Shown here: in pieces, positions 9,833 through 17,862 of the stretch
How positions within the stretch are numbered: the first letter of the stretch is position 1
How the letters are laid out: the number at the start of each line of letters is the position of its first letter
Assembly (NCBI GenBank): GCA_020629795.1
Contig: JAHDCR010000004.1
Coordinates: forward strand, 1 to 64,000
Direction: 5' to 3'
Length of the DNA stretch: 64,000 nt
DNA from: Candidatus Altimarinota bacterium
GTDB lineage: Bacteria > Patescibacteriota > Gracilibacteria > BD1-5 > UBA6164
Program-made: the position numbers and the translations under genes
The notes under the pieces: generated by a model
Databases searched by the model: none
What the model was told of the DNA's origin: nothing
What the model saw: the letters and a program-made list of their open reading frames with translations, nothing else

Positions 9833-10519
9833 ATGAAAATAGATAATCTTACTCTGAGCTTCAAAAATAAAGTAGTCCTCAGGGATATTAATTTAGATAT
9901 AAAACCAGGAGAATTTGTGTTTTTTATTGGATATTCATGATCAGGTAAGACAACTCTTATTCGTTCACTTATTTGAGATTTTAAGCCCGAACGTGGAGAC
10001 ATAGTTTTAGATAATGGTGGATTTTTATATCGAAATCTTACTGAAAAACTTCTGCTGGATTATAGAAAATCAATAGGGGTAATTTTTCAAGATTATAAAC
10101 TCATGGAATCAAAAACAGTCTATGAAAATGTAGCTTTTGCAATGGAGGTATGTTGATACAAGGATAAACAAATAGAAAAAAAAGTCCCACAAGCATTAGA
10201 GCAAGTAGGACTCCTTATAAAAAAAGACACCCACGTACAAGAGCTTTCTGGTGGTGAAAAACAAAGAGTTTCTATAGCCAGAGCCCTAGTGCATGATCCA
10301 AGCATTATTATCTGAGATGAACCAACTGGAAATCTTGATCCTGTTACAGCCTGAGAGATTATGGAAATTTTTGAGGATTTAAATAAGGATGGTAAAACGG
10401 TTATTATTGCAACGCATGATAAAAACATAGTAAATCATATGAAACGTCGAGTTATTACTTTCTCAGATAAGTGAGTTATGAGTGATAGGCAGGAAGCTGA
10501 GTATAACTTGGAGAAATAA
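9833..10519 (+). CDS. ftsE: Cell division ABC ATPase FtsE
   Basis: [17 protein letters not shown] (second P-loop Gly is TGA), [53 protein letters not shown]. Confidence 0.88.
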
Positions 10520-11067: not shown

Positions 11068-11784
11068 ATGGCACAGAATTTATATGATACTTTATGAGTG
11101 AGTAAAACAGCTACCCAGGATGAAATAAAAAAAGCATACAGAAAGCAAGCTATGAAATATCATCCAGATAAGAATAAGGGTGACGCAACTGCTGAAAAGA
11201 AATTCAAAGAGGCAAATACAGCATATCAAACTCTTTCTGATGAGTGAAAAAGAAAACAGTATGATATGTTTTGAAGTGCCGGATGATCTGGAGGAAATCC
11301 GTTTGCTTGATGAGGAAATCCATTTTGAGGTTGAGCAAGTACTTGATGATTTTCTTGATTTGAAGATATTTTTTGAGGTATGTGATGATCGTCGAGAGGA
11401 CAAAATGTAGAATTTGATTTCTGAGATTTATTTTGAGGTGGTATGTGATCACAGGGAAGAACTCGCAGCTCGTCTGCATATGATACTCGTAGAGAACCAC
11501 CAAAACCTGAAACATTAGACTTTGAAAAAACATATGAGATACCTGTGTTTGATATGATACTATGATGTAAGATAGAAGTTACTGGTGTATATGGCCAAAA
11601 AGCAAAGCTTACTATACCAGCTGGAACTAAATCAGGAGCAAAATTTCGAGTCAAAGAGTACTGAAAATCTGAAGGCTCAAAAAAATGAAATCTTATTATC
11701 AAAGCAGTAGCAAAAATGCCTAAGAGTATTTCTGATACAGATAGGAGGCTTCTTGAGCAGATTCGTGACAATATAGGGTATTAA
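11068..11784 (+). CDS. DnaJ/CbpA-like J-domain protein with Gly-rich linker and C-terminal substrate-binding domain
   Basis: [39 protein letters not shown]...[18 protein letters not shown]; Gly-rich linker largely TGA-coded. Confidence 0.9.
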
Positions 11785-15261: not shown

Positions 15262-16935
15262 CTACTTTGCAGCTGACTTTCGGGTTGTACTTGTTTTCTT
15301 TTTTGTAGTTTTAGCTGTAGATACTTTAGTTTTTGCGGGAGTTTTTTGAGTCTTTTTAATAACTTTTTTAGTAGGAGTAGTAACAGTTCATAGTTCTTTT
15401 TGTTTTTCAAAAGCTCTATGTTTTCGCTTATTTTGTATAGCCCTGCAGTGGGGACATGTCTTCCAATGAGATTTAATCTTTTCATCACAATTCCAACATT
15501 TATTCTCTTTAAAGAGTATTATCCACCATCTGATTGCTCCTAGAGTGAGCAGTATAGCTGCTAGTATGAGTAAGAGTCATACTATAATATATGGATTAAT
15601 TGAAACGACTTGCTCTATGTATTGAACTGTAAATGTTTTGGAAGTATTAAACTCTATAGGATTTCACTCCTCATCATAATAAACTAGCTCAATGTCAGCC
15701 GTAATATCTTTATGTGTTCTGTTTTCAGATACTCTTTCCCAAAACATGAGAAAACCAGCATCTTCTTTATTTTTTTGAGTATAGTATTCAGATGGACTCC
15801 AATAATTTACAATAGGGTTTCACTCATCATCAAACGTCTTATAAGGAAATCATTCCCAGCTAGATTCAAATACTCTCTTTGTACCAGGAAGAATATTTCA
15901 TCACTGATCATTGATAGGTACATAATCAACAATTTTTTGATCTATAATAGCTCCTCTATCATTTGCTATAACTTCTCTTCAAATAGCTTTAATGATTCCA
16001 TTTTCATCCTTTAGTACTATTTTTCAAGTAGGTTTAATATGGGTATTTCAGGTGTTTTTGATTGGGAACTGAAACTTTACTTCAAACTCATCTTCAAATA
16101 AGATTCATTCTCACAAGTCATTTGGTATCCCGTTATCTGAAAATAGATCTGGATCTGTGGTTCAGAAACATTTTTTATCATATTTGCTTGTTGTAAAATC
16201 TCACAGAGGACATTCGTCAGGATATATGATGACTGGATTTCACTGAGGGTCAGTTCCTAGATACCATCAATCATTAGATGAATCATCAGTATTTTCATTA
16301 TTATTAACATTATTGTCTGAATTATCATCTCATCAAATATTTCAGTCAGTCGTTTCTCAACTTCAAGAATTACTATTATTATTTCAGTATCATCCAGTTC
16401 ATCATCCAGAAATAATAGGATCCTCTATCTCTACTTCTGTAATCACGTCACCAGAAACGTTCACTAGTATTATGATTCAATAATCAACATTTATAGAAAT
16501 ATTTCCTCCTCAAGTTTCACTTCCAGGGTTTCTAAACAGCACAGCTCAATAGTGTCATCCTGGAGTCGCAGTAGTGGGTACATCGATAGTAAAATTTATC
16601 GTTCATTCTTGTCAGGGTGCAACTGTAACGCTTTCAGATCACAGGGTAATCCAAGAAGATAGTTCTTGATCTGGAAAGACGAGTTCAGATTTACGTACTA
16701 AACTAGGTACTCCGTTTGGTCCACTTGATTGAAAATCTGATGTTGTTGTAGGTAATGTAACGGTCTCATCACCATTATTTCTGATACTAGCAGGTAGAGA
16801 TATAGATTCTCATGGTTGAAGCTCTAGCTCATATCTAATAGGTGTAACACTATAGTTTATAGCTGCGTAGGTAGACTGAATTGTAACTAATACAAAACAA
16901 AAAAGGCTAATAAATAAAAAACGAAAAATATTCAT
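15262..16935 (-). CDS. DUF916-like extracytoplasmic protein with TM helix, cytoplasmic zinc ribbon and H1-like Lys/Thr-rich tail
   Basis: INYSVTPIRYELELQPGESISLPASIRNNGDETVTLP...ATPGGHYGAVLFRNPG; TM PYIIVGLLLILAAILLTLGAI; CWNCDEKIKSHWKTCPHC; tail TTPTKKVIKKTQKTPAKTKVSTAKTTKKKTSTTRKSAAK. Confidence 0.75.
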
Positions 16936-16990: not shown

Positions 16991-17027
16991 AAAAAAGTCT
17001 ACTGACTTGTCAGTAGACTTTTTTATG
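16991..17027. terminator. Intrinsic terminator
   Basis: aaaaaagtctactga-ctt-gtcagtagactttttt. Confidence 0.85.
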
Positions 17028-17045: not shown

Positions 17046-17735
17046 TTAGAAGTTACCAGTAACAGTAAATGTTACTCTATCTTCATAGTCACCAGCTGGT
17101 GTTTCAACAGTCGAAGTAGCTGATACATCAAATGTTACATCATCAATAGTTCCAGAAGTAGATTCTGGTCTATTTGTTGTATAAACGTTATATTCAGTAG
17201 CATTTTCTGTAATTTCTTTAGCTGAATCAAGACCATTAGCACCAGTATTTACAGCAGTATATGCTGCATAACTAGAATCATCAGTTCCGTTGATTGTAGA
17301 TGCCCAAGTATAGTTTTCAGCAACTCCATCAGCAGTGAGAGAATTAATTTGTACTGCATTATCTGCAACATTCGTAAGACCACCACTTTGTGATCTTGCT
17401 GTGATAGAAACACCGTTTACAGCGTTTGTACCAACTTCAATAGCGAGATTACCAGTAGAGGCAACTCCAGCAACAAGAACCCCTAGATCAATTTCTTCAG
17501 CAGAAATTGCCATGTTTAGAGTAGGGTTTACTCTAGCTTTAATAAGAATATCAGAAACAGATCCTGACGCAGTACCAGGGAAAGAATCATCCCAGTTAAT
17601 CACGCTGTCAAAAGCAGGATTTCCATCTACTGAACCTGTACCAATTTGGGATGCTGATACAGCACCAAAGTTAGATGTTGCAATTGCCATAAGAGCAACA
17701 GCAGCAAATACTTTTTGTATTTGTGTTTTTGTCAT
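17046..17735 (-). CDS. Small secreted WxL-like/surface protein
   Basis: Signal peptide MTKTQIQKVFAAVALMAIATSNFGAVSA; C-term TVETPAGDYEDRVTFTVTGNF; about 20 Gly all GGN, no TGA. Confidence 0.8.
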   Translation of the reverse strand: MTKTQIQKVFAAVALMAIATSNFGAVSASQIGTGSVDGNPAFDSVINWDDSFPGTASGSVSDILIKARVNPTLNMAISAEEIDLGVLVAGVASTGNLAIEVGTNAVNGVSITARSQSGGLTNVADNAVQINSLTADGVAENYTWASTINGTDDSSYAAYTAVNTGANGLDSAKEITENATEYNVYTTNRPESTSGTIDDVTFDVSATSTVETPAGDYEDRVTFTVTGNF

Positions 17736-17830
17736 AACTATAAGAGTTATAAAAAATAAAATATCGCTATAGAAGAGAGTGCACTCTATTAGCTGATATA
17801 ATCATACCATATAATTTAATGATGTGTCAA

Positions 17831-17862
17831 AAAAAAGACTTGTCAAAAGACAAGTTTTTTAA
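17831..17862. terminator. Intrinsic terminator
   Basis: aaaaagacttgtcaaaagacaagtttttt, downstream of the giant minus-strand gene. Confidence 0.75.

Follow-up and report, generated by a model that had tools for sequence, protein, structure and literature searches.

Whether a stop codon that has been reassigned ever becomes an ordinary sense codon is the question raised by this locus, and here the answer is seemingly no, even though the codon concerned is the commonest one for its amino acid. The window, that is, the whole stretch of 64,000 nucleotides analysed, comes from a Gracilibacteria genome of 1.1 Mb in 22 contigs, whose assembly is ~95% complete. This genome uses genetic code 25 (UGA = Gly), with in-frame TGA widespread in conserved genes and aligned with Gly positions conserved in E. 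coli. In a sample of 594 kb of stretches from the genome, window included, TGA makes up 45% of the 11,976 Gly codons in 537 mechanically called open reading frames (ORFs), some of the background ORFs being spurious. It is the commonest Gly codon of the genome (about 45-46%, versus 26% for GGA), and across the ORFs of the window its share is 790 of 1469 Gly codons (54%). The gene under study uses none:

17046..17735, minus strand: coding sequence of a probable secreted, pilin-like beta-sandwich protein, 229 codons, 0 TGA among 20 Gly codons

The reading frame opens with ATG at 17735 and closes with a TAA stop at 17046-17048. Its Gly codons comprise 13 GGT, 6 GGA and 1 GGG, which makes exact the count given in the initial annotation (about 20 glycines, GGN only, no TGA), and the frame is unbroken under code 11, as that annotation also stated. 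A longer mechanical ORF, beginning with TTG and reaching to 17846, contains one TGA, solely upstream of the ATG. Neighbouring genes had been described as encoding much of their Gly as TGA, and the window-wide share proves to be above that estimate. The figure of about a third for ftsE agrees with an FtsE-like ABC ATPase (9833-10519; 6 of 18 Gly codons), and the dnaJ gene described as TGA-rich (11068-11784) carries 20 TGA codons.

At a rate of 45% (537 ORFs in 594 kb), the binomial probability of finding 0 TGA in 20 Gly codons is ~6e-6. Genes vary more in TGA use than a binomial allows (overdispersion phi 2.3), so an empirical rate is fairer: among genes with 15-30 Gly codons outside the reference set of ribosomal-protein and elongation-factor genes, 2 of 192 are TGA-free, namely NusA and ClpP. 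Out of frame, TGA is not depleted in the gene, with 18 occurrences in frame 2, or 78.6 per 1000 codons, compared with 62.7 expected from synonymous shuffles. The triplet is thus avoided in frame only, which points to codon avoidance, and avoidance of a DNA motif was rejected as the cause.

Code 25 and its tRNA-Gly(UCA), together with loss of RF2, are established for Gracilibacteria and Absconditabacteria by three reports (PMC4032931, PMC8629427, PMC6851277). The present genome has a single tRNA-Gly(UCA) gene, anticodon TCA, on contig C13 (28328-28406, minus strand; locus L164), 95% identical to the copy of a complete relative. Read from the relative's copy by the criteria of PMC8629427, the Gly identity elements G1:C72, C2:G71, G3:C70 and U73 are present. 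We found this tRNA in 52 of the 60 genomes searched. At 79 nt, it is labelled tRNA-SeC by ARAGORN and is missed by the Rfam tRNA search, which returned zero tRNA-Gly for the genome. Nor were tRNAs for Ser, Pro, Ile, Asn or Gly(UCC) found in the assembly; these absences are probably assembly gaps, since a relative has such tRNAs in clusters. Among the tRNAs read, the complete relative and one same-genus relative have one tRNA-Gly(UCC) each and no tRNA-Gly(GCC). Decoding of UGA depends on one dedicated tRNA. Gene counts do not indicate that UCA is the scarcer of the two tRNAs (UCC being counted in two relatives). A limiting tRNA-Gly(UCA), the other suggestion of the initial annotation, would be consistent with these counts.

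A single release factor was found in the genome, of RF1 type, with P-E-T at the P-x-T motif and a score below the prfB cut-off; in the ~95% complete assembly, no RF2 rose above that cut-off. Separately, one Gracilibacteria bin (genome G022, locus L136) holds a TGA-free, full RF2-type gene beside the usual RF1-type gene, which suggests either contamination or an acquired RF2.

TGA use in the genome follows gene class. Forty-two conserved genes were located with E. coli reference proteins, blind to TGA. TGA accounts for 15 of 227 Gly codons in 18 ribosomal-protein genes (the outlier L9 left out) and for 1 of 60 in EF-Tu and EF-Ts, or ~6% when these are pooled. ATP synthase genes have 12 of 146. 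GroEL (18 of 53) and DnaJ (17 of 53) contain more TGA than one would expect from abundance alone. The L9 homologue (L013:18388-18843, contig C12), which sits directly after the TGA-free nusA, has TGA at 10 of its 12 Gly codons, opposite to the other ribosomal proteins.

A codon-bias score was built from the ribosomal-protein and elongation-factor genes, with Gly excluded. Across 461 genes, TGA fraction declines with this score (rho -0.33; -0.26 without the reference genes and the target): it is ~0.51 for the half of the genes with lower scores and 0.23 for the top decile. In a binomial model that includes GC of the non-Gly codons, the effect of the score has z = -10.3. The surface gene ranks 6th of the 461, among EF-Tu, S12, L2 and S1, and GGT forms 65% of its GGN codons, compared with 60% in the reference set and 33% in other genes. 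TGA-free genes were not found to be common at low-expressed loci: of the 14 such genes with at least 8 Gly and at least 100 codons, 12 have a codon bias in the 92nd percentile or higher. The earlier proposal of translational selection has therefore held up against the codon score, the GC control and the comparison with ribosomal proteins.

Related genomes display the same gradient. Homologues of the gene are present in 53 of 99 of them, and in 28 of 29 relatives the homologue has a lower TGA fraction than its own flanking genes (stratified z = -23, among species that share ancestry). Over 24 genomes, this one included, mean TGA is 0.645 in the background, which in relatives consists of one to a few flanking genes each, 0.351 in ribosomal proteins of the S10 cluster and 0.133 in the surface gene. 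The surface gene lies below the ribosomal proteins in 23 of the 24, species that are not phylogenetically independent, and the two fractions covary (rho 0.77). Median log-odds shifts from background are 1.8 for ribosomal proteins and 3.2 for the surface gene. In genome G010, the values are 0.88, 0.38 and 0.05 for background, ribosomal proteins and surface gene, respectively. On the other side, the homologues in several relatives (G009, G042, G041 and G032) have 32-53% TGA. In genome G011 (locus L038), tandem paralogues of the gene have TGA at 7 of 23 and 2 of 22 Gly codons, which suggests, on codon content, that they may be unequally expressed.

The surroundings of the gene are those of a conserved locus, probably transcribed on its own:

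17801..17830, minus strand: promoter motif conserved in relatives, TTGACA, 18 nt, TATGAT, with TG one base before the -10 box; 11 of 12 matches
17776..17787, no strand assigned: perfect palindrome AGAGTGCACTCT, lying within the predicted 5' UTR and shared with the two nearest relatives only
16991..17024, minus strand: predicted intrinsic terminator of the gene, 15-bp stem and T-run, -17.9 kcal/mol, z = -8.3
17838..17855, minus strand: terminator-like hairpin after the upstream gene, its T-run reaching into the -35 box
15262..16935, minus strand: conserved neighbour, a membrane protein of WxLIP-like type that ends in a zinc ribbon, TGA at 33 of 50 Gly codons
17893..22683, minus strand: conserved neighbour, secreted adhesin-like protein of 1596 aa, TGA at 54 of 153 Gly codons

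The TTGACA/T-18-TG motif occurs at most homologues, yet among the 496 genes sampled from the genome studied here only 2 are preceded by it. Because the T-run of the upstream hairpin overlaps the -35 box, the gene is probably monocistronic, as judged from these signals. No Shine-Dalgarno sequence is visible at the gene or its homologues. Both flanking genes use TGA freely. The membrane protein, which matches the WxLIP profile (PF06030) at 30.2 bits against a curated cut-off of 27.3, adjoins the homologue in most relatives whose flanks were read, and the large adhesin does so in many.

The product begins with a predicted export signal:

17649..17735, minus strand: Sec-type signal peptide MTKTQIQKVFAAVALMAIATSNFGAVSAS, about residues 1-29, read from the sequence; predicted helix at 5-20, then a low-confidence linker

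Beyond it, the predicted structure is a beta-rich domain (pLDDT 86). Searches of Pfam and PDB sequence profiles with the product returned no family, and the best Foldseek matches are weak (Csu pilin, TasA and Fim subunits; E 0.003-0.03, TM-score 0.26-0.37). On the strength of the model, the gene probably encodes a secreted pilin-like protein. The signal peptide and the conserved neighbours also lend support to the surface location proposed in the initial annotation. By profile and motif, it is not a WxL protein: a search of the genome with the WxL domain PF13731 is empty up to E = 10, neither PF13731 nor a W-x-L motif occurs in 31 homologues, and the invariant Trp48 of the family lies in W-D-D. 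The last 25 residues resemble the end of the adhesin's C-terminal domain (AGxY motif), with a probability of only 14%, so shared ancestry is not claimed. Homologues are 44-72% identical, and the family is not slow-evolving. Its 41 loci in 84,980 species' genomes are nearly all labelled Gracilibacteria; the remainder are vague labels of metagenome-assembled genomes, one weak Dojkabacteria match and one Saprospiraceae record (L200), whose close homologue is probably on a mis-binned Gracilibacteria contig.

We consider it likely that this is the gene of a very abundant, secreted surface protein and that translational selection acts with unusual strength on its Gly codons, UGA being decoded less efficiently. 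The protein is probably the small subunit of a coat or fibre on the surface, attached close to the WxLIP-like membrane protein. After reassignment to Gly, UGA would have spread under AT-biased mutation to about half of Gly codons. Read by the single-copy tRNA-Gly(UCA), it may be decoded less efficiently than GGN, and GGU especially. The higher the expression of a gene, the more thoroughly selection would then purge UGA from it, with a weak effect in most genes, a strong one in ribosomal-protein genes and the strongest in the surface gene. From codon bias, the promoter and the comparison with ribosomal proteins, we infer the high abundance of the protein; a kinetic cost of UGA, and its cause at the tRNA, are likewise inferred. 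These patterns suggest that recoded TGA is still translated less well and is avoided by heavily expressed genes. On balance, we also favour a broader reading, with rather less assurance, in which UGA would remain kinetically inferior in Gracilibacteria even where it encodes almost 90% of background Gly. Under such expression-graded selection, TGA/(TGA+GGN) would serve as an expression meter, by which this uncharacterised surface protein would exceed the ribosomal proteins in abundance.

Of the alternatives, the one that survives best is accuracy rather than speed, in which UGA would be selected against for its errors, namely misreading as Trp or termination. A proteomic study of a BD1-5 population reports low-level UGA misreading (PMC4032931), in keeping with this idea. 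Selection for accuracy, however, predicts that GGN should concentrate at conserved Gly, and in a test of limited size no such difference was seen, leaving this explanation improbable.

A second alternative is that the gene is merely GC-richer than its neighbours and that TGA follows base composition. Gene GC does correlate with TGA fraction (rho -0.60; target GC 0.38), but GGN is itself GC-rich, so part of the raw correlation is built in. GC of the non-Gly codons predicts 46% TGA for the gene, making 0 of 20 an event of probability 4e-6; third-position GC at these codons is low (0.14), and the codon-score effect given above persists with GC in the model. Composition is accordingly a very unlikely cause.

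Amino-acid turnover stands equally low in our estimation. Under this explanation, conserved proteins keep ancestral GGN, while TGA arises mostly at new Gly in fast-evolving proteins, and it fits with ribosomal proteins being both conserved and TGA-poor. Within the same genes, however, TGA is equally frequent at conserved and non-conserved Gly (z = 0.03), and ribosomal and other genes differ even at conserved Gly alone (p = 1.5e-7). In homologues of the surface gene, TGA takes 11.8% of conserved and 13.5% of non-conserved Gly, and at 44-72% identity the gene is not slow-evolving.

Least likely of all is recent acquisition from a standard-code organism, with TGA yet to accumulate: the intact frame under code 11 would agree with it, but the near confinement of the family to Gracilibacteria-labelled records among 84,980 species' genomes makes transfer from such a donor unlikely, local gene order is conserved, codon usage matches that of host ribosomal genes, and TGA-poverty is kept across the divergent homologues.

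Translational selection against UGA in an abundant surface protein has several implications. If TGA avoidance tracks expression, most of the 24 species make the surface protein in amounts that equal or exceed those of ribosomal proteins, and it is a candidate for the dominant surface protein of a host-dependent lineage. TGA fraction would offer a proxy for expression, obtainable from DNA alone, in uncultured bacteria. There is also a bearing on phage-host genetic codes in these bacteria. It has been proposed that TGA, through its high use, is the codon to which these hosts are optimised (PMC10746230). The pattern seen here points in the opposite direction and suggests that TGA-free phage genes are not handicapped.

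In its code, this genome resembles the Gracilibacteria and Absconditabacteria described in the literature, with tRNA-Gly(UCA) present and RF2 not found. A non-exhaustive literature search, covering sources in part, found no description of uneven UGA use between expression classes in code 25. The locus itself recalls the WxL/WxLIP (DUF916) systems of Firmicutes in combining a WxLIP-like membrane protein, a small secreted beta-rich protein and a large adhesin. It differs from them in having no WxL domain or motif, and in a family so far essentially confined to Gracilibacteria. A close parallel in codon use is the ciliate Oligohymenophorea sp. PL0344, in which reassigned UAA and UAG are used less in the most expressed genes, translational inefficiency being one possible reason given by its authors (PMC10553269). 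That case concerns a eukaryote, UAA = Lys and UAG = Glu, and a reduction across a whole gene set, whereas here a bacterium avoids UGA = Gly almost completely, and conservation as the cause was tested and found unsupported. More generally, the pattern resembles the CAI-type bias of highly expressed bacterial genes, in which preferred codons concentrate in genes for ribosomal proteins, EF-Tu and abundant surface proteins. Unlike the usual bias of this type, the dispreferred codon here is a former stop, yet the commonest Gly codon of the genome.
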